From a virus: a DNA stretch of 37,985 bases. Location: positions 1 through 37,985 of IMG/VR virus record IMGVR_UViG_3300027834_000279; one strand, 5' to 3'. Made by a program: the position numbers and the translations under genes. Positions 7,505-23,442 of the stretch are shown here, piece after piece. The notes below the pieces were generated by a model, which did no database searches, was not told the origin of the DNA, and saw only the letters and a list, made by a program, of their open reading frames with translations. Each line of letters starts with the position of its first letter. The first letter of the stretch is position 1.

Positions 7505-7546
7505 GAAAGACATTAATAGAATGGTGGAGATATCCTACCGTGTCAA
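7505..7546 (-). promoter_or_regulatory. Early leftward promoter region (TTGACA box)
   Basis: On the minus strand a perfect TTGACA -35 box lies at 7546-7541, overlapping the repressor start codon. A weak -10 (CATTCT/TTCTAT) follows 17-19 bases downstream. This would start the early transcript near 7505 and place the promoter under the divergent repressor. The -10 is poor, so the assignment is tentative. Confidence 0.45.
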
Positions 7547-8226
7547 TCGGATTGGTGGAAAATATACCCCAAAGGATTAGGGAAGAAATATCTATCCTTG
7601 GGCTTTCTCTGGCTGAAGCGTCCAGACGCGCGGGTGAAAACTCACCTCAGCGCTTGAAAGACGTGCTCGCTGGAAGACAGAAATGTTCTGCTGACCTAGT
7701 TGCTCGGCTAGCAAATATTGGCGTGGATATTTCCTACGTTTTGACAGGTGTACGTGCAGGCACATCCGATGCTCAGCCCCTTGGCTTGCCTGTGACTGAG
7801 CCAGGGCCGGATTTAGTGCCGGTGATGATGTACGACATCGAAGCCGCCGCCGGCGCTGGTCGCAGTTTTGAAGGTGAACCAGTGCAAACCACGCTGCACT
7901 TCCCCAGCAGTGAGCTGGCCGATAAGGGGCTGGATCCCGCGCAGGTGGTAGGCATTAAGGTGCGCGGTGATTCGATGGACGGCACCCTGGCCGATGGCGA
8001 CTGGGTGTTGGTAGATCGCAGCAATCGCGACCCGAAACAGGAAGGGGTGTTTCTGCTGCTGGTGAGTGGAGAGCGGCGGATCAAGCGGGTGCAACGGTTA
8101 GCCGGGGGCGCGTTGTACCTGATCAGTGATAACGAGCTTTACCAGCCGGAAATGATCAAGCCGCAGGATATGCATGATGTGGAGATTCTGGGGCGGTGTG
8201 AGATTCGGATTGGGCGGGTTGTTTGA
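7540..8226 (+). CDS. LexA-like S24 phage repressor
   Basis: 228-aa CI-type repressor. The N-terminal ~70 residues form a helix-turn-helix (LAEASRRAGENSPQRLKDVLAG). The C-terminal half is an S24 peptidase domain with the Ser145 motif RGDSMDG and Lys182, 37 residues apart as in LexA. A linker Ala-Gly pair (residues 104-107) is the likely self-cleavage site. It should hold the prophage silent and be cut upon RecA activation. Start GTG at 7540 with GGAGA about nine bases upstream. It is divergent to the early operon and followed on the same strand by the BRCT and Pycsar genes without an obvious terminator. Confidence 0.9.
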   Translation: MSIGLVENIPQRIREEISILGLSLAEASRRAGENSPQRLKDVLAGRQKCSADLVARLANIGVDISYVLTGVRAGTSDAQPLGLPVTEPGPDLVPVMMYDIEAAAGAGRSFEGEPVQTTLHFPSSELADKGLDPAQVVGIKVRGDSMDGTLADGDWVLVDRSNRDPKQEGVFLLLVSGERRIKRVQRLAGGALYLISDNELYQPEMIKPQDMHDVEILGRCEIRIGRVV

Positions 8227-8292
8227 CTGTAAAACCATGAATACATAAAGGCAGCTTTGAGACTGCTAGTAAGGAAAAACTGGGGGCAGGGG

Positions 8293-8769
8293 ATGGAAGA
8301 CGTTTTGAAATTCGATTATGAAGACGCGAAGGGGAACGTTAGCACGCGAGAAGTGAGCCAGTGGAAGGATGATGGCTGGCTGCTCAAAGGTATCTGCTCC
8401 AATGATAACCGCCGCAAAACATTCCGGCGTGACCGTATCAAAGTAGTTCATGCAGGTGGAGATAGCCTTAGGCCAATTTCCATGCCTCAACACCTCGTTG
8501 ATCAAGCGATCACTTCCATACAAAAGCGAACTGACTCTTTAGAAATTCTCTTTACTGGCTTTGCAAAGGCTCGGCGAGCGCAGCTGGAAGAAGCTGCTAA
8601 TGAGTCGGGCATGCGTGTCTGTAAGACGGTTACTGTGGGGTTGTCGTTTGTCTGTGGTGGGCCTACTGCAGGGCCTACTAAGCTGCGGAATGCTCAGGCT
8701 AAAGGTGTTCCGGTATTGGATGAGGCTGACTTTTTAAAGCTGTTGGAAACTGGTGAGCTGCCGGAGTAA
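8293..8769 (+). CDS. WYL-like plus BRCT domain protein
   Basis: 158 aa from ATG 8293; a TTG at 8257 would add 12 residues. Residues ~5-55 (LKFDYEDAKGNVSTREVSQW...RRKTFRRDRIKVV) resemble a WYL-type ligand-sensing fold without the usual helix-turn-helix. Residues ~85-155 (LEILFTGFAKARRAQLEEAANESGMRV...GPTKLRNAQAKGVPVLDEADFLKLL) read as a BRCT domain like that of DNA ligase, a protein- or phosphate-binding module. Its stop lies four bases before the Pycsar effector ATG, whose ribosome site GGAG sits inside this gene's last codons, so the two are probably one transcript. It may be an ordinary repressor-linked phage gene or a regulator/sensor of the defence genes; sequence cannot decide. Confidence 0.75.
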   Translation: MEDVLKFDYEDAKGNVSTREVSQWKDDGWLLKGICSNDNRRKTFRRDRIKVVHAGGDSLRPISMPQHLVDQAITSIQKRTDSLEILFTGFAKARRAQLEEAANESGMRVCKTVTVGLSFVCGGPTAGPTKLRNAQAKGVPVLDEADFLKLLETGELPE

Positions 8770-8773
8770 AGCT

Positions 8774-9292
8774 ATGAGTGAGTTCAAATTTGATAAGCTA
8801 GATATCTTATTAAAATCTCTATCTAGGAACGATGCTTATATAGCGAATGCTAATACTAAGTCCACAGTAGCACTATCCTTTTCTGCAGCTATTATAGCTG
8901 CAACGGGGTTGAATTATTCGAGAGTTGTAGGTTCTATGGGTCATGATTTTTCGGTTAATGTCCTTAATGTTTTAGTGTTTTTGTCTATTTCTTCATTTCT
9001 ACTTGCAAGCGTTTTTTCTATGTTGGTTATTAGGCCTCGTCTCGATTTGAGTAAGATAAAAAATAATTTCTCATTTTTTGATATAGTCAGTAATTACTCT
9101 AACCACAAGGAATATATAGTTGGGCTAAAAGAAGAGAGTGCAGAGCAGTTTTTCGAGCGCCTTGCCGTTCTCAATTTTAATATGTCGGTCATAGTGAACA
9201 AGAAAAACGAATATCAAGTTAAGTCCATCGTGGCAATGTTTGGAGGAACATTTTCCCTCTCTTTAGCATTGCTTGTCGTTATTCTAGGGTAG
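8774..9292 (+). CDS. pycTM: Pycsar-type transmembrane effector
   Basis: 172-aa membrane protein. Hydrophobic segments lie at residues ~31-46, ~62-85 and ~150-171. The N-terminal block LDILLKSLSRNDAYIANANTKSTVALSFSAAIIA has the I..AN.K....L.F pattern of the Pycsar effector/SMODS-associated membrane families. In known Pycsar systems the cyclase product (cCMP or cUMP) activates the partner TM protein, which disrupts the inner membrane and stops phage growth. The cyclase gene follows after 8 bp. The DNA is far more AT-rich than the phage genes around it, indicating recent acquisition. Assignment rests on the motif pattern plus the cyclase neighbour. Confidence 0.82.
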   Translation: MSEFKFDKLDILLKSLSRNDAYIANANTKSTVALSFSAAIIAATGLNYSRVVGSMGHDFSVNVLNVLVFLSISSFLLASVFSMLVIRPRLDLSKIKNNFSFFDIVSNYSNHKEYIVGLKEESAEQFFERLAVLNFNMSVIVNKKNEYQVKSIVAMFGGTFSLSLALLVVILG

Positions 9293-9300
9293 GGGGAAGT

Positions 9301-10647
9301 ATGAATTTTGATCAACTAGTTAAAGAGTACTTTCCAGATAAGCTGTTAAATAAAAGCTATGGAATGGTTAATGAGTCAGCGATTTTTGCTAATGATGGTT
9401 ATGGTCTCGAGTCTAGAAGCTTTCTAGAGCCAATTAAAAATGAAGAACATCAAGTTCAAAAATCAATCAGGCCTTGGTTTGGAAAGGATGGTATTAAAGA
9501 ACATGGTATAGGATATCACCCTGATTATGAGCACCTTAGTCAAACTGGTGAGATGGAGAATGGCTATATTTGTACTCTCTTTTTAGATATAGCAAAAAGT
9601 TCAAGATTGAATTTAATTTATGATTTGCAAAAAGCATCATTGATTAAAAATAGAATTCTTCAAGTTTCAATAGAGGTTATTAGAGCATTCAATGGTTATC
9701 CTCATCGCATGATGGGAGACGCCATAATGGCTTTTTTTGGAGACAAAAGTATTACTGAAGAACAAGCGGCGATTGATGCTGTTAATTGTGCTGCAGTGCT
9801 AAGGAATATTATTGTCGACCATGTTGTAAAAAGAATTGATGAAGAGTTTGGTGAGCAAAGAACAAAATTAGGTATACGTATTGGTGTGGACTATGGCGCT
9901 AGAGATGAAGTGATCTGGGGAGCTTTTGGCTATACAAGTGCATTTGAAATAACTGCACATGGTCTAAGTGTGGATTTATGCTCAAAGCTACAAGGTATGG
10001 CAGGTAAAAATAATATTATGTTAGGTGAGGGCATTTACTCCCTTATAGATTTTCCAGAGTCTTTTCTTAAAGTTAAAGAAGATAGTAGTGGTGAAGTTAA
10101 GTATGTTACACCTAATCTCACTAAGGCGGATGGTGAGAGTAAGATAAATTACGGTTGTCGTTTGGTTCGCTTAGATGAATACTACAAGTTGATGCCTTTT
10201 AAGCCTGAAAATAAAGGTTTAACGAATAATGGTTTTTATGATGATTTTGTATATTTGTGTGAATATTTTGATGAGGTGGAGGATAAGTGGATAAAGTATG
10301 ATTCTATTTCTAAGCCATTAGGCAAGGAGATAGCATTACGTTTTTCATTGTTTGTACCTAATTATTATTTTGAAAATTATGTAATTGGTTTTAAGTATAA
10401 ATATACTAAGATTAACCATGGAAAGGAGTCAAAAGAGTATAAAGGTAATGGGAGATTTGATAAAAGCGAAGGTCGCCTTGGTATGGGGAGTGAAACCCAT
10501 TACATGAATGGTATACCCTGCAAAATGGCGAGAGTAGTCGATAGTACTCGTTATAGAGGTATACATCAGATGAACATTGAAGGTTTGTTTTTGGGTATGA
10601 ATAACTCCAGTGTATTTAAAGATGTTGTAGGGGTAATGATTTACTAG
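9301..10647 (+). CDS. pycC: Pycsar nucleotide cyclase with AGS-C-like sensor
   Basis: 448-aa class III cyclase. The catalytic domain (~86-245) has the two metal-binding aspartates: Asp96 in LFLDIAKSS and Asp140 in MMGDAIMAFF. At the usual VNLAARL position it reads VDLCSKL (residues 224-230), so the Asn and Arg that help adenylate cyclases are Asp and Lys. The C-terminal ~140 residues (YDSISKPLGKEIALRFSLFVPNYY...) look like the AGS-C sensor domain of phage-sensing cyclases and CD-NTases. The N-terminal ~85 residues are unassigned. A membrane effector 8 bp upstream supports Pycsar, where phage infection triggers cCMP or cUMP synthesis. Which nucleotide is made is not determinable. Strongly AT-rich; ribosome site AGGGGG. 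Confidence 0.87.
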   Translation: MNFDQLVKEYFPDKLLNKSYGMVNESAIFANDGYGLESRSFLEPIKNEEHQVQKSIRPWFGKDGIKEHGIGYHPDYEHLSQTGEMENGYICTLFLDIAKSSRLNLIYDLQKASLIKNRILQVSIEVIRAFNGYPHRMMGDAIMAFFGDKSITEEQAAIDAVNCAAVLRNIIVDHVVKRIDEEFGEQRTKLGIRIGVDYGARDEVIWGAFGYTSAFEITAHGLSVDLCSKLQGMAGKNNIMLGEGIYSLIDFPESFLKVKEDSSGEVKYVTPNLTKADGESKINYGCRLVRLDEYYKLMPFKPENKGLTNNGFYDDFVYLCEYFDEVEDKWIKYDSISKPLGKEIALRFSLFVPNYYFENYVIGFKYKYTKINHGKESKEYKGNGRFDKSEGRLGMGSETHYMNGIPCKMARVVDSTRYRGIHQMNIEGLFLGMNNSSVFKDVVGVMIY

Positions 10648-14329: not shown

Positions 14330-15112
14330 TTAATTCCTAACTGAATGAGCGCACTCTAAAATATAATGGCGCTGCCGGATAAGACTTATACCTACATCCA
14401 TAATTGCCAAGCATAAGCCTACAAAGGGAATGGTTCGCTTCATCAGCCAAAGCCTTATCGCACGCGCTATTGGGGATCGCAAGGTTTCAACAGCCTGCTT
14501 GATAGCTTCACTGATAGTAAAGTCATTAATAAGTAGTTCTATATAGTTCCTGAGCTTATTGTTATCGCCTTGCTCAAGTGAATCAGCCATCCCATCTACA
14601 TAAGCAACTTGATTTTGCTCGCTCAAAAAGCCCCTGAAGTCATCTATACGATTAGGCTCAATGTTGAACACATCGGCTAATATTCGTAGTACTGCTTCCG
14701 CACAAGGGTTGAGTGTCGAGGGTGGCAATATCCAATTGATGTCGTCTTCATCACGTAAAGGGATATCCTCATTGAATGGAGCGGGGGAAAAGTTAGTACG
14801 TATCCACTCCTCACCTTCAATATCATCAAGTTCCACGAATTCAGGAACTATCCTGTCCAGTTCATTCTGCAGTACACCGAGGACTTCACTGCTGGTATCA
14901 ATTTGGTCATCGGGTGATGGGTTCAGGCATAAGAGGGCGAACTCTTGCTTCGCAGAGGCTCTAATCGCATTGATAGTGTCGTAGTCCTCTATATCCAGGT
15001 AAACGCTTCTTGGTTGACCTAACACGTTGATGGGATAACAAATCAGTGCACCGCTGCCTAGGCTTGCGCTTGTCACAAAGGCTCTTCTGCTCATTTTTTT
15101 ATTGTTTAACAT
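14330..15112 (-). CDS. Unknown protein with twin-arginine-like leader
   Basis: 260 aa. The N-terminus MSRRAFVTSASLGSGALICYPINVLG has a Ser-Arg-Arg-x-Phe twin-arginine-like motif and a hydrophobic stretch, suggesting Tat export or a membrane anchor. The middle is acidic (DDIEGEEWIRTNF, RDEDDINWILPP). Near the C-terminus TIPFVGLCLAIMDVGISLI is hydrophobic enough for a membrane helix, after a basic amphipathic part (LRSPIARAIRLWLMKR). No family recognised. Start at 15112 with GAGG about nine bases upstream. Base composition is lower in GC than the flanking D gene. It stands alone as cargo between the scar region and D: a candidate lysogenic-conversion or defence gene by position only. Confidence 0.72.
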   Translation of the reverse strand: MLNNKKMSRRAFVTSASLGSGALICYPINVLGQPRSVYLDIEDYDTINAIRASAKQEFALLCLNPSPDDQIDTSSEVLGVLQNELDRIVPEFVELDDIEGEEWIRTNFSPAPFNEDIPLRDEDDINWILPPSTLNPCAEAVLRILADVFNIEPNRIDDFRGFLSEQNQVAYVDGMADSLEQGDNNKLRNYIELLINDFTISEAIKQAVETLRSPIARAIRLWLMKRTIPFVGLCLAIMDVGISLIRQRHYILECAHSVRN

Positions 15113-15246: not shown

Positions 15247-16251
15247 TCAAAATGAGGTTGGTTCTGCGGTTTTAATCTCACACCTCACCTGCGTCCCAAA
15301 CCCTCGCTCATTCAGCGAGTGCGTCACCTCCGCCACCAACCAAGCAGTGGCATCTATCTGGGGCTTGTAGCCACTAAGCGTGAGCGGCGATTCCGGCAGA
15401 ATATCCGCCCGCCCCAGTGCCAGCGTTAACTCAAACTCTGCAAGACCGCGCTGGATGCGTTGCCACTCACTGCGTGCGGCGGCCATGGCGTCGTCTTCCG
15501 TGGCGTAGGTGGGGCGTAGCTGCTTGGCGTTTTCCTCGGTACCGGCCAGTACAGTTTTGCGCTCTGCGCCCCTTGTGTCGTTCCAGTAGGCTTTTACGCC
15601 ACTGTAGGCGTCGCGATCGGTGACGCTGTAGCGGTGCTGGTCGCCGTCGCGGCGGGTGAGGGTGATGGCGGGCATGGCTTGACCGCTGGCGGTGAGTCCT
15701 TCGCCTGCCACGGTAAATAGCATGCGCCCGGCTTTGATGGCGGCAATGGCATCGTACCGTTCGCCCAGGCGGGTGAGAAAATTCAGATCCGACTCGTCGG
15801 TTTGGTCGATGTGACCAATGCGGATGCCGTTGATGGCTGCGGCCACCACTGGCTCTAACTCATTGCGGCCGGCGATGGTGGTGACGATCTCGCCCAGCGT
15901 TACGTCATGCCAGCTTTGGGTGCGTTTGCCAGGCAGCTGGCCACGCATATCCGCCGAGCGGGCGCGGATGGTGAGCTGATCTGGCGTACCGCTGTGCTGC
16001 ACTTCATCTACCGTAAAGCGGCCCTTGTCGATCAGCCCTTCATCCCGCCAGCCAAAAGCCACCTGCAGCACTGCACCGCGTGGGGGAATGGCGAGCTGGC
16101 CATCGTGATCTGCCAGGGTGATATCCAGCTGGTCGGCTTCCAGGCCGCGCTGCTCGCGTAGGGTCAAACTGATCAGGCGGCCGTTAATGCGCGGGGTGAT
16201 GTCGTTGCCATCCAGCGTGATTCGGTAGCTGGGCTTTGGGTAAGCGTTCAT
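15247..16251 (-). CDS. D: Tail hub / late control protein gpD
   Basis: 334-aa P2 gpD homologue, the baseplate hub at the tube end and relative of the T4 gp27/VgrG fold. Recognisable parts are the N-terminal PSYRITLDGNDITPRINGRLISLTL, LEADQLDITLADHDG, the ESDLNFLTRLGERYDA block and the C-terminal GYKPQIDATAWLVAEVTHSLNERG. It overlaps U by 4 bp (ATGA) and ends the F-E-T-U-D operon. Two decayed relatives of its 3' end lie at 13490-13549 and 13785-14025. Confidence 0.93.
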   Translation of the reverse strand: MNAYPKPSYRITLDGNDITPRINGRLISLTLREQRGLEADQLDITLADHDGQLAIPPRGAVLQVAFGWRDEGLIDKGRFTVDEVQHSGTPDQLTIRARSADMRGQLPGKRTQSWHDVTLGEIVTTIAGRNELEPVVAAAINGIRIGHIDQTDESDLNFLTRLGERYDAIAAIKAGRMLFTVAGEGLTASGQAMPAITLTRRDGDQHRYSVTDRDAYSGVKAYWNDTRGAERKTVLAGTEENAKQLRPTYATEDDAMAAARSEWQRIQRGLAEFELTLALGRADILPESPLTLSGYKPQIDATAWLVAEVTHSLNERGFGTQVRCEIKTAEPTSF

Positions 16252-16691
16252 ACGTAGCCCCCGGCCAGTCGCGCCACGGCGGGCAGAGCCAGGCGGCCGA
16301 TTAGGTCGGTGCGTTCGTCGTCGACGTGCTCGAGCGTGAGGTTGAACTCGATTTTTTCAGCGGCGCCGTCGCGGAAGAAGTGGGTGCTGGTTTCTTCCAC
16401 GCGGGTCACGACCCATAAGCCGTATTGGCGGCCGGTGCCTTCGACCAGCGGCCAGGCGTTGCCCTGGTCGGCCATCTCGCGGATCTCATCCAGGCTGAAA
16501 CGGCCGCCGGTGAAGGTGGGCAGTAGGGTGCCGCTGAGCGTGATGGTATCCGCGCCTGGGCCTGCAAACTGGTAGGCGGGCCGCTGCCCCACGCGGGATT
16601 GGCTGGGGTGCCGCCATTCGGTAATGCGTTTGAGTTCTTGGTAGGGCACGGTGCGGGTTTCAAACACGAACATGCCGAGGGCCATGAGCAT
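16248..16691 (-). CDS. U: Tail protein gpU
   Basis: 147-aa gpU family protein, needed to complete the P2 tail. The N-terminal MFVFETRTVPYQELKRITEWRHPSQSRVGQRPAYQFAGPGADTITLSG and later FSLDEIREMADQG...WVVTRVEETSTHF are typical. It lies between the tape measure and D as in P2 and overlaps D by four bases. Confidence 0.93.
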   Translation of the reverse strand: MLMALGMFVFETRTVPYQELKRITEWRHPSQSRVGQRPAYQFAGPGADTITLSGTLLPTFTGGRFSLDEIREMADQGNAWPLVEGTGRQYGLWVVTRVEETSTHFFRDGAAEKIEFNLTLEHVDDERTDLIGRLALPAVARLAGGYV

Positions 16692-16703
16692 GATGGGTTC
16701 CTT

Positions 16704-19433
16704 TTAATCGAGGTCGCGCATCGATGAGCGCTGGCGTGCCTGGGCGTCGCGCTGGGCGTTGGCCAGGGCGCGCTGGACTTCCTGTGCCACGTATTGGGCG
16801 AGCTGCTGTTCGTTCATGCCGGGGGCTGGGGTAACGTTGATATTGATATCGCCCATGATGAGGCCGCCCGCCTGGGCGCTGGGCGCGCTCAGCGGTGGCC
16901 GGGTATCAAACTGAATAGGTGCTTGCTGCTCGATACTGGGCATCGCCGCTGCAGGTAAGGTAGCTGCGCCCAGAGCCAGCCCGGCCCCTGCACGGGTCAC
17001 CCGTCGGGCGATCTCTTGAATGCGCCTGGCGGGTTCGTCCCGCTGGGCGTCCAGCCCTTTGTTCAGGCCATCCACCGTGTAGCCGCCCAACTGGGTAAAC
17101 ACCCGGGAGGGGCTGTTGATATCCAGCACATCGGCAAACCAGCTGCGTACGCTGCCGGCCATATTCACCACTCGGTCGCGCAGCTCGCCAAGCTTGCTAC
17201 TCAGGCCGCTGATTAAGCCATCCACCGTGAAGCCGCCTAGCTGGGCAAACACCCGGGAGGGGCTGTTGATGCCCAGCACGTTGGCGAACCAGTTACGCAC
17301 GCTACCCGCCATGCCCGTTATTCTTTCGCGCAATTCGCCCAGCTTGCCGGTTAGCCCACCGATCATGCCGTCCACAATGGCGCTACCAAGCGAGCTGAAC
17401 TGCTCGGGGATCTGTACGCCCAGGGCGCTTAAAGCGTTAGTGATGCCCTGGTAAAGCAGACCCAGCGGTGACCAGTTGATAAGTAGCTGTGCCACGCCGC
17501 TGATGCCGTTATCAAAGGCGTTTTTCACCTGCTGCCACAGCCCCAGGAAAAAGGCTTTGATGGGTTCCCAGTAGCGGTAGATCAGATAAGCCGCGGCAGC
17601 GATCGCGGCGATGGCCACGCCAATGGGGTTGGCGAGCAGGAACATGGAAACGGTGCGGAATACGCCGCCCAGCCATAGGAATGCTTTGCCCGCCATTAGG
17701 ATCTGCGGGCCGACCAGCGCCATGCCGTAGCGCACCATGGCAATGGGGCCGAGGATAGAGGCGAGCATCAGCGTTAGTGCACCGCCCGCGGTGACCAGCA
17801 CGGCCAGAATGGCGGCCACCTTGGCGATGGTACCGGCCAGCCGTGGGTTTTCATTGATCCAGCGGCCTACGCTGCGGGTGATGGCGGTGACGTTCTGGAT
17901 GAGGTCGCGCAGCGGGCCGTTGTTGGTGTCGGTGATCGAGATCCCCACTTCTTCCCAGGCCGATTTGAGCGATTTGAGGTCGCCACCGATGTTGTCGGCC
18001 ATGGTTTTCGCCACACGGGCGTTTTCACCGGCGGCGTTGGTGAGGATCTCGACAAACTGCTCGATGCCCGCGCTGCCTTGCTGGGCGATCAGTTCCGCCA
18101 TGCCGGCGCCGGGTTCCTCGCCGAAGATGTCCTTTAAGTAGGCGGCGCGGTCGGCGTTGCCCATCTCCTCGGTGGCTTTGGCTACGTCGGTGAGAATGCG
18201 GGGGATGTCCCGCAGGTTGCCTTGGGCATCTTTGGCATTGACGCCTAGGTCTGCCAGCGCCCCGGCAGCGGCCCCGGTGGGCGCGGCCAGGCGGGTGACC
18301 ATGGCGCGTAGGGTGGTGCCTGCTTGGCTGCCTTGAATGCCCACATTGCCCAGCAGCCCGGCCATGGCAGCGGACTGTTCCAGCGACATATTCATGGCCC
18401 GGGCCTGGGGCGCCACGTACTTCATGGATTCGCCGAGCATTTCCAGATCGACGTTGGCCCGGGTAGTGGTGGCGGTGAGCACATCGCCCACGCGGCCCAT
18501 CTCGGCGGGGTCTAGTCCGAAACCGGAGAGAATGTTGGAGGAGATATCCGCCGTGCGGGCGAGATCGGTGCGGTTGGCTAGTGCCAGATCGAGCATATTC
18601 GGCATGGCAGCCTGGATGGCCTCCGGATCGAAGCCTGCCATGGCCAGGTAGCCTTGCGCATCGGCGGATTGCCCCGCGCTAAAGGCGGTGGTGGCTCCTA
18701 GCTCCCGCGCTTGCTGGCGAAGGGCCTGGAAGCGTTCGTCGTCGGCTTCCATGCGGGTGAGCGCCTGCACCCGCGACATCGACTCCCCATAGGCCACGCC
18801 GGGGGCCAGCAGCCGTGCCCCGGCGTACAGCGCGGCACCGCCACTGGCCATCATGCCCGCGCCGGTACCGGCCATGTTGTTGCGCATGCTCATAGCGCGG
18901 TCGTATCGGCCACGGGCTTGGGCGGCATTGCGCTGCTGTTCGGCTAGCCGTTTTAGCCGCTGCCGCTGCTCATCCACGGCGGTGTTGGCCTGCTGTATCT
19001 CGCTGGCCAGCCGTCGTTGATCGCGGGAGAGGTGTTCGGTGCTGACGCCGTTATTTTTTAGCGAGGTACGCAGCCGCTGCAGCTGCTGGCGTTCTTCATC
19101 GTAACGCTGGCTTAGTCGGCGCGCCTGGGTAATGGCCCGTTGACGTTCGGCACGCAATGCGGTGGTGTCGCCCTGGTGGGACTGCATCTGCTGAGAGAGG
19201 CGGCGGATGCGTTCCTGCTGTTCGCGCAGGGCGGTGGTGGTTTCCGTGGATTGCCGGGTTAGGGTACGAAAGGAGTTGACGTTCTTCTGGGTGGCCTCCA
19301 GTTGCTTTAAGCGGTCACGGTTTTCGCGCATGGCTTGAGACGCGCCCTGGGAGGCGCGATCAATCGCCCGTAGCGGGCGGGTGGCCCGGTCGACGGCGTT
19401 GAGAATGACCTCAAGCTTTAGATTACGCGCCAC
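16704..19433 (-). CDS. T: Tail tape measure protein gpT
   Basis: 909-aa tape measure protein that sets tail length and is threaded through the tube. The first ~190 residues are coiled-coil (QQERIRRLSQQMQSHQ..., RDQRRLASEIQQ). A TP901-type core follows (GAMMASGGAALYAGARLL, LGATTAFSAGQSADAQGYLAMAGF), then hydrophobic segments (~560-640) and 50-residue repeats (~680-800). GTG start at 19433, overlapping the E' frame by 11 bp as in P2. Confidence 0.94.
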   Translation of the reverse strand: MARNLKLEVILNAVDRATRPLRAIDRASQGASQAMRENRDRLKQLEATQKNVNSFRTLTRQSTETTTALREQQERIRRLSQQMQSHQGDTTALRAERQRAITQARRLSQRYDEERQQLQRLRTSLKNNGVSTEHLSRDQRRLASEIQQANTAVDEQRQRLKRLAEQQRNAAQARGRYDRAMSMRNNMAGTGAGMMASGGAALYAGARLLAPGVAYGESMSRVQALTRMEADDERFQALRQQARELGATTAFSAGQSADAQGYLAMAGFDPEAIQAAMPNMLDLALANRTDLARTADISSNILSGFGLDPAEMGRVGDVLTATTTRANVDLEMLGESMKYVAPQARAMNMSLEQSAAMAGLLGNVGIQGSQAGTTLRAMVTRLAAPTGAAAGALADLGVNAKDAQGNLRDIPRILTDVAKATEEMGNADRAAYLKDIFGEEPGAGMAELIAQQGSAGIEQFVEILTNAAGENARVAKTMADNIGGDLKSLKSAWEEVGISITDTNNGPLRDLIQNVTAITRSVGRWINENPRLAGTIAKVAAILAVLVTAGGALTLMLASILGPIAMVRYGMALVGPQILMAGKAFLWLGGVFRTVSMFLLANPIGVAIAAIAAAAYLIYRYWEPIKAFFLGLWQQVKNAFDNGISGVAQLLINWSPLGLLYQGITNALSALGVQIPEQFSSLGSAIVDGMIGGLTGKLGELRERITGMAGSVRNWFANVLGINSPSRVFAQLGGFTVDGLISGLSSKLGELRDRVVNMAGSVRSWFADVLDINSPSRVFTQLGGYTVDGLNKGLDAQRDEPARRIQEIARRVTRAGAGLALGAATLPAAAMPSIEQQAPIQFDTRPPLSAPSAQAGGLIMGDININVTPAPGMNEQQLAQYVAQEVQRALANAQRDAQARQRSSMRDLD
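17041..17400 (-). repeat. 50-residue repeats in tape measure gene
   Basis: Two 150-bp units (17101-17250 and 17251-17400) and a partial third (17041-17100). Each encodes an INSPSRVF-QLGG-TVDGL...KLGELR-R...MAGSVR-WFA-VL unit. The copies differ at several bases, so this is an old in-frame duplication. Confidence 0.88.
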
Positions 19434-20467: not shown

Positions 20468-21652
20468 TCAGGCGGTGGCCGCGACGCGCTCGGCGAAGTC
20501 AGCCAGGTAGGTATCGGTAATGCGTTGCTGGAAGCCGAGATCCTCCAGCGGCGGTACCGGCGTGTAGTCGTAGTCGATGCGCAGCTTGCCAGCCTTGAGG
20601 GAGGTCTGGGTGTTGAGCTCCTCGTTCAGCCAGGCGCTGCCATCCACAATCAGCCCCAGGGTTTTCAGCTCGCGGAACTTGGCGTTCAGGCCTTCGATGA
20701 TGTCCCGCGCCAATGAGGCGTGCAGGGGCAGATCCACTGCCCAGAGGTGCGCTTCGGCCACGGTGTCGGCGAGGATCTGCGCGGTGCGGGTGTAGTTCTC
20801 GAAGGGGAACAGGCTTTGCGGCCCGGCGCAGGTGCGCGAGCCCCAGAAGCGGTAGCCGCTCTGGTTGACCAGGGTGGTGACATCGGCGGCGTTGAGCAGG
20901 CCTGCATCGGTGGCGGGCGACTGCAGATCCCAGAACACGTCTTTATTGATACCGGTGACGCCATTGACCACCACGTTACTGATGGTTTTGTGCCAGCCCA
21001 CGGTTTGGTCCAGCTGGGCGCGCAGGCCCAGGGCGATGGCCACGGGGCTGATATCGACCGTGTCGGCATCGTCGGTATCGAACGCCTGCCACTGGGGCCA
21101 GATGACCATTAGCTCACGGGCGCCGAACTGGTCGCGGTAGGCGGTGACCTCGGTAATGGTCTCGCAGCCGTGGGCGTAGACATAGCCAAAGGCGCGCAGC
21201 TGCTGCAGCACCGAGACCAGGGCGGTGGCTACCGGCTGGGTATCCAGATACGGCACGCCAATAATGCGCGGCGTGACGCCCAGCTTTTGCTTGGCGGTGA
21301 GCAGCGCCTGCAGCCCAGTGCGTTGGCCTAGTTCGGTGGTGGTGCCAATCACGTTGGTGGTGGTTTCATCGGCATCAATGCCTTCTTCTACCCGCACCAC
21401 GACGATGATCGGTTTGGCTTGCTGGCTGATCGCGGTGAGGGTGTCTTTCAGCGTCCCCTGGGTACCGGCCTTGCCAATGGCGGTATCCACATTAGTGACC
21501 AGAGCGGGCTGGTTAAGGGGAAAGGTGGTGGCATCCGCATCGGAAGCGGTGCAGACCACGCCAATCACCGCCGTGGAGACGGTGCGGATGGTGCGTGTGC
21601 CGTCGTTGACTTCCGCAACGCGCACGCCGTGGTGGTATTGATCGAGTGCCAT
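20468..21652 (-). CDS. FI: Tail sheath protein gpFI
   Basis: 394-aa contractile sheath subunit matching P2 FI: N-terminal YHHGVRVAEVNDGTRTIRTVSTAVIGVVCTA; GYVYAHGCETITEVTAYRDQFGARELMVIWPQW; the C-terminal GSRTCAGPQSLFPFENYTRTAQILADTV block. It is first in the FI-FII-E-T-U-D operon, and an activator-type dyad lies 96-119 bp upstream. Confidence 0.95.
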   Translation of the reverse strand: MALDQYHHGVRVAEVNDGTRTIRTVSTAVIGVVCTASDADATTFPLNQPALVTNVDTAIGKAGTQGTLKDTLTAISQQAKPIIVVVRVEEGIDADETTTNVIGTTTELGQRTGLQALLTAKQKLGVTPRIIGVPYLDTQPVATALVSVLQQLRAFGYVYAHGCETITEVTAYRDQFGARELMVIWPQWQAFDTDDADTVDISPVAIALGLRAQLDQTVGWHKTISNVVVNGVTGINKDVFWDLQSPATDAGLLNAADVTTLVNQSGYRFWGSRTCAGPQSLFPFENYTRTAQILADTVAEAHLWAVDLPLHASLARDIIEGLNAKFRELKTLGLIVDGSAWLNEELNTQTSLKAGKLRIDYDYTPVPPLEDLGFQQRITDTYLADFAERVAATA

Positions 21653-21747: not shown

Positions 21748-21771
21748 GGTGTGAGTGGGACGGTTTACACC
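21748..21771 (-). promoter_or_regulatory. Late-promoter activator dyad (P_F equivalent)
   Basis: 24-bp dyad GGTGT-N14-ACACC (inner bases GAGTG...GTTT) about 100 bp before FI. It has the same design and length as the sites at 29400-29423 and 35066-35089. By position it corresponds to the P2 F-operon late promoter, where Ogr binds. Confidence 0.75.
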
Positions 21772-21819
21772 GTGGGGTGTGGTAAGGTGCGAGAAAGTGA
21801 CTGTTAAGGGAATGTTGGG

Positions 21820-22410
21820 ATGAGCGGGACAGAATTAATGCTAAAGAGCTTTGGCGTAGCTTATCGTGGCTATATGGCATGGAAGTTCGAAAGGCTCCTT
21901 CAAAAAGCAGAAGCCCATGGTATGACTGAAGAGGAGTTATGTAACAGTGACCAACGATTTGCTCTTTTTATGCGGGTGGGAAGAGCATTTGAGACCTGCT
22001 CAGAAAGAGAGGTAGTGGATTACATTGCTGACGCGATGGTTGGAGGCGTCAAGTGTGGTGACGCTGATGCAAAGCCGGATTTCGCTCAAATGGCACTTTC
22101 ATCACTCTCGGGAGCTACAAAAGTTGAATTAGATATTTTGCTTTTACTCAGGAAACATCAGCGCTACACGTTAAACGTTGGTGAAGTCGAGGATAAAGAA
22201 AAAATTAATGAATACGTAGATGAATGTTGTCATGCTTTAGGGATTGATTCTCTTATGCTCGCGTCTTTATCACACAGTATGGCAAGAACTGGATTGGTAA
22301 CTCCAACCTCAAGTGGCTGGGGTGGTTTAGTGAACCATACCAATACATTGACGCCATTGGCGCGGCAATTATTCCACTATGTTGATTACTCAAGGCGGCT
22401 TACCCTATAA
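21820..22410 (+). CDS. Unknown accessory protein at Z/fun-like hotspot
   Basis: 196-aa protein, no family recognised with confidence. A helical N-terminal half (FGVAYRGYMAWKFERLLQKAEAHGMTEEEL) leads to a middle segment ATKVELDILLLLRKHQRYTL and a C-terminal part that reads like a small winged helix (LGIDSLMLASLSHSMARTGLVTP...NTLTPLARQLFHYV). The general shape recalls DUF4393/Abi-alpha-type phage-exclusion proteins, but this is only an impression. It is transcribed against the late genes, with lower GC, and sits between FI and the tail-fibre genes where P2 carries Z/fun. Ribosome site GGGA. Confidence 0.72.
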   Translation: MSGTELMLKSFGVAYRGYMAWKFERLLQKAEAHGMTEEELCNSDQRFALFMRVGRAFETCSEREVVDYIADAMVGGVKCGDADAKPDFAQMALSSLSGATKVELDILLLLRKHQRYTLNVGEVEDKEKINEYVDECCHALGIDSLMLASLSHSMARTGLVTPTSSGWGGLVNHTNTLTPLARQLFHYVDYSRRLTL

Positions 22411-22430
22411 GCCTGCCGGATGGCAGGCTT
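22409..22430. terminator. Terminator between convergent accessory genes
   Basis: Perfect stem AAGCCTGCC / GGCAGGCTT around a GGAT loop immediately after the stop of the plus-strand gene. On the plus strand CATTC follows; on the minus strand the outer AAGCC arm reads into ATAGGG. It separates the two convergent genes. Confidence 0.75.
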
Positions 22431-22437
22431 CATTCAA

Positions 22438-22758
22438 TCACGATTGAGATATTTTCTGAACTTTAACGCCTGCTGAAGAGAAAGCAGCGGCTACATCATC
22501 AATCGAAGCAACATTGATAGCAACTTCTATTTCAAGGTCGACAGTCTTTCCTTTTAGCTCCAACATCGATACTGCATGTTCATAGGCTTCGGCTGGGTTG
22601 GAAAAGACCATATTAACTCTTACAAACTCCCCAAACTCTTTATCAGATATAAATAAGCGCGTGGCATTGTTGCTTTCATTTAGATCAATCATGATATGGT
22701 GAACTTTGTCATGTTCGATAATTCTTACCTTTTGGATTCCTATGTATGTGTCATTCAT
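22438..22758 (-). CDS. Unknown accessory protein at Z/fun-like hotspot
   Basis: 106 aa with AGAGGAAAT upstream. It reads as a mixed beta/alpha protein (VRIIEHDKVHHIMIDLNESN, FISDKEFGEFVRVNMVFSNPAEAYEHAVSMLELKG, VDLEIEVAINVASIDDVAAAFSSAGVKV) with no signal peptide or membrane segment. Unrecognised. It converges on the 196-aa gene across a terminator. The two may be partners or independent cargo. It has a ~130-bp AT-rich upstream region of its own, so it is probably expressed in the lysogen independently of the late operon. Confidence 0.7.
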   Translation of the reverse strand: MNDTYIGIQKVRIIEHDKVHHIMIDLNESNNATRLFISDKEFGEFVRVNMVFSNPAEAYEHAVSMLELKGKTVDLEIEVAINVASIDDVAAAFSSAGVKVQKISQS

Positions 22759-22890
22759 ATATTTCCTCTTTAATAAACTATCAGCTGGAATGCTGATAAT
22801 GTTTACCTTTAGTTAAGTGTAATTATTTCCTGAGTTAGTGCCTCATTCTGTCATGTTTTGTAAAGGCTGCCAATCGGAGGGGGATTGCAT

Positions 22891-23442
22891 TTAAGGCACT
22901 TTGCCATGTGCTCGCGCCGCCTCAAACGCCCCGACAATATCAAAGGCGTGCAACTCTTCGGCACCTTCGGCGGCGTTGATTAAATCGCTGACTTGCCGTT
23001 CCGCTTTGAAGCACCCCTGCACATGCTGAGCCACCGCTTGGGCGATGGGGCGAAGCTCAGCCTCGGTAACCGTGACCCAGCCACCTGCGGCTTTCCATTC
23101 AATCTCATCCACGAACGGCTGTGTGAGCGTTTGAAATGCACTCGTAAGCTGCGCCTGGCTTTCGCGATCAGTGAGGATACGTGATCCATCGGGTAGCTCA
23201 ACGCCGCCGGTTTCGATCTCAAAGCGGTGGGCCGCGAGGGCGCTTTTCAGCTGGTCACGTAGGTAGTCGAGCGACGGTGGTTCTAAGCTATCGCCGTTGG
23301 CGATGTAGTCGTGGTTGATCAACCCTTCCAGACTTTCCGGTACCGGCAGCCAGCGAATGGAAGGGTGAAAGCGGCCTTGTGGCTCAAAGTCGATAAACTC
23401 AGCGCAACGGTTGTCATCGGTAATACGCACATAGCGGGTCAT
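22891..23442 (-). CDS. Tail fibre assembly-like protein (DUF4376)
   Basis: 183 aa. The central block LRDQLKSALAAHRFEIETGGVELPDGSRILTDRESQAQLTSAFQTL...VDEIEWKAAGGWVTVTEAEL matches the DUF4376 region of phage tail-fibre accessory proteins, seen behind fibre genes in the place of P2 G. It probably helps fibre folding or attachment. It overlaps the preceding small gene by 4 bp. Confidence 0.82.
   Translation of the reverse strand: MTRYVRITDDNRCAEFIDFEPQGRFHPSIRWLPVPESLEGLINHDYIANGDSLEPPSLDYLRDQLKSALAAHRFEIETGGVELPDGSRILTDRESQAQLTSAFQTLTQPFVDEIEWKAAGGWVTVTEAELRPIAQAVAQHVQGCFKAERQVSDLINAAEGAEELHAFDIVGAFEAARAHGKVP

Follow-up and report, generated by a model that had tools for sequence, protein, structure and literature searches.

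A candidate phage-exclusion gene in a cargo hotspot beside the tail sheath gene of Halomonas-type P2-like phages

A Halomonas-type P2-like phage carries, between its tail sheath gene and a tail-fibre gene, an open reading frame (orfA) which, as judged from sequence comparison, belongs to an undescribed protein family, and it is proposed here, with about an even chance of being right, that this is a cargo (lysogenic-conversion) gene of a variable hotspot that most likely encodes a lone putative phage-exclusion protein. The site is of a familiar kind, its protein family is undescribed, and the way in which its genes are exchanged is unusual. Hotspots of this kind are known in E. coli; the present one is found across a whole halophilic bacterial family, its cargo is mostly unrecognised, and the suggested route of cargo exchange is at the start codon, behind a common leader.

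The window, that is, the whole stretch of DNA that was analysed, corresponds to a virus record 37985 bases long, the first 12 kb of which match Bacillus phage vB_BpuM-ZY1 at 84% and Halomonas phage vB_HboP_4908 at 88%. The former phage (OR820920.1, locus L001), for which Bacillus pumilus is given as host, matches the window at 84% in its early region and has a sheath protein 94% identical to that of the window, and its host label may be wrong. Two convergent reading frames, orfA and orfB, are present between the sheath gene FI and the DUF4376 fibre gene (Table 1), where a sequence-only reading of the window had placed them. In agreement with that reading, their GC content (0.44 for orfA and 0.38 for orfB) is lower than that of the sheath side (about 0.62-0.63) and of the fibre side (mostly above 0.6), and both are unrecognised, with no match in Pfam, PHROGs (nothing below E 0.1), NCBIfam or PADLOC (no model matched at E up to 5). 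Both are considered genuine genes, because close pairs of orfA homologues have dN/dS values of 0.07-0.27, indicative of purifying selection, and because orfB has a co-located homologue of 38% identity; orfB is in addition accompanied by an AGAGGA ribosome-binding-like site at 22764-22769. The terminator that was said to separate the two genes was not recovered as such, since the hairpin between their stop codons (-18.1 kcal/mol, z -2.2) is devoid of a T-run and a terminator scan called none. The statement that the pair lies outside the late operon stands for orfA, because of its orientation, and is not supported for orfB, which runs in the direction of the tail operon, 132 bp past the DUF4376 stop codon, with no terminator found in between.

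Table 1. Coordinates of the features at the hotspot of the window.
Feature	Position	Strand	Description	Basis
orfA	21820..22410	+	196 aa; helical N-domain and winged-helix-like C-domain	ORF, homologues, AF2, dN/dS
orfB	22438..22758	-	106 aa; accessory gene, without link to orfA elsewhere	ORF, homologues L019/L071, L020/L021
Tail sheath gene FI (Phage_sheath_1)	20468..21652	-	left anchor of hotspot	
DUF4376 tail-fibre (assembly-type) gene	22891..23442	-	right anchor of hotspot	
Conserved inverted element	21750..21769	.	TGTGAGTGGGACGGTTTACA on +	alignment of sheath upstream regions; P2 pF activator annotation
Resident cargo leader	21770..21819	+	ends at orfA start codon	shared with L006, L029, L115
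9-bp hairpin	22409..22430	.	between convergent stop codons; terminator-like, without T-run	

In phage P2 (AF063097.1), fun(Z) occupies positions 15675-17261. It comes immediately after the V operon terminator, lies directly upstream of the promoter from which FI is read, is antiparallel to FI, and is annotated as blocking the growth of T5. orfA resembles it as nonessential cargo placed between the end of the fibre-assembly genes and FI and antiparallel to the latter, whereas Fun, with 528 aa according to the annotated coordinates, is far longer than the 196 aa of orfA, the two having been compared by length and position. The fun locus has been described as a second defence-enriched locus of E. 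coli P2-like phages, with three newly found systems (Vassallo et al. 2022, PMC9519451). Both are variable cargo loci, that of E. coli with systems of tested function and that of Halomonadaceae with genes of predicted or unrecognised function; the Halomonadaceae gap also differs in possessing a resident leader that is common to unrelated first genes.

To survey the gap, a set of 275 Halomonadaceae genomes was searched for the sheath gene, which was found in 66, and the DNA upstream of it was fetched. Together with six loci that either had been found through orfA or are the window itself (two of them also sheath matches), this gave 71 gaps with both anchors, 65 of these via the sheath. Cargo, defined as ORFs of at least 80 aa with a GC content below 0.575 and called mechanically, so that counts are approximate, was present in 58 of the 71 gaps and formed 51 sequence clusters, and the median GC was 0.51 in the gaps versus 0.61 in the flanks. 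The first cargo gene is antiparallel to the tail operon in 50 of the 58 loaded gaps, which is also true of orfA, orfB having the opposite orientation. Gap content varies among related phages, with the sheath and fibre anchors conserved, and includes AT3 acyltransferases (8 matching proteins), DUF1508 proteins (7), several exclusion-type genes (an AAA_15/AriA-like ATPase, a HEPN protein, a weak AbiU2-like match and a D12 adenine methyltransferase), as well as GNAT, sulfatase, DUF676, lipoprotein and many unrecognised membrane proteins. This content identifies the gap as a cargo hotspot, in which some exclusion-type genes occur among much that is unrecognised, and, along with the position relative to P2, bears out the earlier proposal of a variable hotspot equivalent to Z/fun.

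The left border of the variable region is marked by the conserved inverted element upstream of FI, which is likely to serve as activator site for the pF-like late promoter from which the sheath gene is read; the P2 record has an annotated pF activator site in the equivalent interval. The P2 Ogr consensus, searched as TGT-N12-ACA, had no exact match, a related inverted element being conserved instead. The leader that follows, of about 45 nt, is 87-89% identical among the window, where orfA is the first gene, L006 (cluster c7) and L029 (cluster c20), and in these comparisons similarity drops to background at the ATG; the same leader precedes a c7-type gene in vB_HboP_4908 (L115). Random positions reached at most 51% identity, and among shuffled regions 0 of 1520 trials matched the core at nine mismatches or fewer. 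A second leader is common to L032 and L033 (76%). That unrelated first genes have a common leader, the similarity of which ends at the ATG, suggests that cargo is swapped behind it, the first cargo genes appearing to be exchanged at the start codon.

Homologues of orfA were found in vB_BpuM-ZY1, in IMG/VR contigs and in 11 of 275 Halomonadaceae genomes (one of the 11 being a 52-residue fragment), and the family alignment comprises 15 members. Within the gap the gene recurs in phages that are divergent from one another, where it runs antiparallel to the tail operon. Wider searches yielded 1 of 369 genomes at the class level, which was the very genome the query came from, and at the phylum level 4 of 398, including two Halomonadaceae that had been found before and one genome detected only at E 0.009, so the gene is rare outside the Halomonadaceae group; a scan of IMG/VR with a divergent orfA subgroup found nothing. 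Remote relatives in another gammaproteobacterial family (L102, L107-L109), which stand alone in chromosomes with no recognised defence genes beside them, join the family in hhalign with a probability of 98.7 (E 1.6e-16, 179 columns).

The protein consists of a conserved helical N-domain (residues ~12-95) and a winged-helix-like C-domain (~95-193). Among five AlphaFold2 models built from nine sequences, the best has a mean pLDDT of 79.5 (56-62 for the other four) and shows helices through residue 112, followed by the C-domain, the wing region of which has low pLDDT. VIA-align matched the C-domain to MarR/ArsR/RosR/MotA chains over about 66-95 residues with a best Z of 6.6, a middling value, and weak MarR_2 matches were obtained in 3 of the 15 members; a sequence profile against the PDB gave only OhrR/HxlR-type matches (E 0.5-1.5) over the C-domain, and Foldseek found no match to the model under E 0.5 in PDB or BFVD. 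Modelled fold and weak sequence matches thus sustain the winged-helix-like C-terminus that had been noticed earlier, although a MarR/ArsR-like winged-helix fold is best called probable rather than proven, because a Z below 8 may reflect a common arrangement. In this regard, orfA differs from MarR/ArsR regulators by its extra conserved N-domain, and a common fold shows no function.

Abi-alpha has helices followed by a C-terminal domain, a make-up that may be similar to that of orfA. The Abi-like make-up ascribed to orfA from its sequence did not translate into kinship with this family, given that Abi_alpha (DUF4393, PF14337) matched none of the 15 orfA members at E up to 10 and that hhalign, in a weak comparison with two orfA members only, returned a probability of 0.3%. 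Like orfA, Abi-alpha is a prophage-borne single gene (PMC6356687).

The two halves of orfA appear to follow different histories. Identity over residues 1-112 and 113-196 is 79% and 42% between the window and L002, and 79% and 36% between the window and L005; the corresponding values are 80% and 84% for L005/L007, 60% and 70% for L013/L007, and 72% and 75% for L011/L012. By their C-domains, L001, L003, L006 and L010 form one type, L005, L007 and L013 a second, and L011 and L012 a third, the rest being single. Trees of the N- and C-domains are mutually rejected (AU p 0.003 on the N alignment and 0.0006 on the C alignment), and in pairs of different type DNA identity stays at ~70-80% over the first ~80 codons and then drops, reaching background by codon ~100. 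The discordant identities, the AU rejection and the drop in DNA identity all point to exchange between the halves of the gene and indicate, for a set of few sequences in which C-domains of different types align at 25-42% identity, that C-domain types recombine against the N-domain. With the C-domains typed in this way, specificity is predicted to reside in them. The gene as a whole does not track the phage backbone either, since in genome G156 the sheath is 88% identical and orfA only about 33%.

orfA also occurs outside any sheath locus, in genome G052 (L096), where it is part of a recombinase-linked island and has a dihydrouridine-synthase-like gene in its vicinity (recombinase and synthase were both called by eye from sequence motifs). 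It is codirectional there with a 104-aa ORF located 9 bp upstream and with a PD-T7-4-like gene close by (PADLOC E 2.8e-12). Within the window itself, a second low-GC cargo block at 8257-10647 (+), right after an S24-type repressor (7540-8226), encodes a 448-aa class III cyclase that matches cytidylate cyclase 8jsf (E 5.7e-26) and 9ard, and just upstream of it a 179-aa ORF with PycTM-like transmembrane segments, recognised by eye; the block is likely a Pycsar defence cassette, and it is preceded by a 170-aa ORF with a BRCT-like C-terminus, again judged by eye. The sister phage vB_HboP_4908 has an annotated Eco29kI restriction-modification system near polV (L115, 12318-14170), at the position of which the window has a 260-aa ORF with a signal-like N-terminus (14330-15112, -), probably a third cargo site. 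The Pycsar-like cassette and the Eco29kI system of the sister phage lead to the view that this phage group carries defence cargo.

Being located where P2 keeps its phage-blocking fun, orfA is a good candidate for a one-gene defence system. Counted in support of exclusion were the fun(Z)-like place and orientation, the hotspot survey with its exclusion-type co-occupants, the PD-T7-4-like neighbour at L096, the dN/dS values, the discordance of the N- and C-domains with the AU rejections, the common leader, the Pycsar-like cassette and Eco29kI; counted against it were the solitary chromosomal relatives and the promoter scan for lysogenic expression, in which no sigma-70 promoter for orfA rose above chance. 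A large part of the cargo at this site concerns surface modification or is unrecognised, so that residence there does not by itself mark a gene as defensive. In the proposed mechanism, orfA would be expressed in the lysogen, its constant helical N-domain would oligomerise or carry the effector activity, and its variable winged-helix domain would recognise a phage-specific nucleic acid or protein, recognition then triggering exclusion through a block of transcription or replication or through abortive death. A more far-reaching version, which is speculative and rather unlikely to hold in full, regards the family as constant helical effectors with interchangeable winged-helix specificity domains, recombination at a prophage cargo site with its resident leader reshuffling both domain and whole gene, so as to provide prophages with a library of exclusion specificities.

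Several other roles can be envisaged. Winged helices are common in ordinary regulators too, and orfA could be cargo that helps the lysogen otherwise, for example as a winged-helix regulator of host genes, a possibility to be taken seriously even if we do not expect it to be correct. The matches of its C-domain to MarR/ArsR/RosR regulators, the presence of acyltransferases, a sulfatase and a lipoprotein in the same hotspot and the solitary chromosomal position of its distant relatives would suit such a role; however, typed, recombining C-domains in the company of exclusion-type genes are more in keeping with an arms race than with a regulator of housekeeping kind, and the half that is kept constant is the helical domain, not the one that looks DNA-binding. 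It has also to be considered that orfA, which diverges from FI with its start 50 nt from the late-promoter element and has a winged-helix C-domain, is a regulator of the phage itself, acting on the divergent late promoter pF or in the lysogeny circuit. This appears improbable, as the late-promoter element is conserved in phages without orfA, orfA is found at only 9 of about 67 loci reached through the sheath alone, another gene intervenes between orfA and FI in L029, L005, L006, L001 and L022, and in L096 orfA lies outside the FI gap. A role of orfA or orfB in the tail or its assembly, or a status as functionless relics, might be suggested by their place inside the tail gene block and by the tail-operon direction of orfB. 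Either is very improbable, given that neither gene matches a tail family, that no homologue is clearly a tail or assembly protein, and that orfA is under purifying selection, is missing from most of the related phages and occurs in an island that is not a phage.

Equally hard to credit is the earlier suggestion that orfA and orfB act together as a two-gene system of exclusion, in favour of which are their adjacency in the window and the low GC of both. orfA is present at about 14 surveyed loci, none of which has orfB, and the homologues of orfB (31-38% identity) occur without orfA, either in this gap, adjoining the sheath gene (L019/L071), or on two chromosomes with a GGDEF-domain-like gene as neighbour (L020 and L021). 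These co-occurrence counts speak strongly against the pair as one system, and the convergent arrangement with separate starts means that the two genes are not one operon. No match to orfB was found in phages, plasmids, IMG/VR or PDB, nor in a sample of 110 genomes of the phylum, and its single-sequence AF2 model, of low confidence (pLDDT 60), gave no convincing match in a fold search. The best explanation is that orfB is an independent passenger gene and no partner of orfA.

Other occupants of the gap are of interest in their own right. The second commonest cargo, cluster c7 (L005, L006, L030, L054, L055, L059, L067, L070 and L115), is a membrane protein of ~260-330 aa with the motif W..FATYLSGTVGVAAVVATL, one scanned member of which had no Pfam family above the cut-off, and it represents another exclusion candidate. 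In L046 (564-2540, +) the gap holds a 659-aa AAA_15 ATPase like AriA of PARIS (PADLOC E 7.5e-20), with no obvious AriB beside it. Finally, L032 and L036 carry, parallel to the tail operon, a HEPN protein together with an unrecognised 268-aa protein (clusters c29 and c30), an arrangement that resembles a toxin-antitoxin or defence pair.
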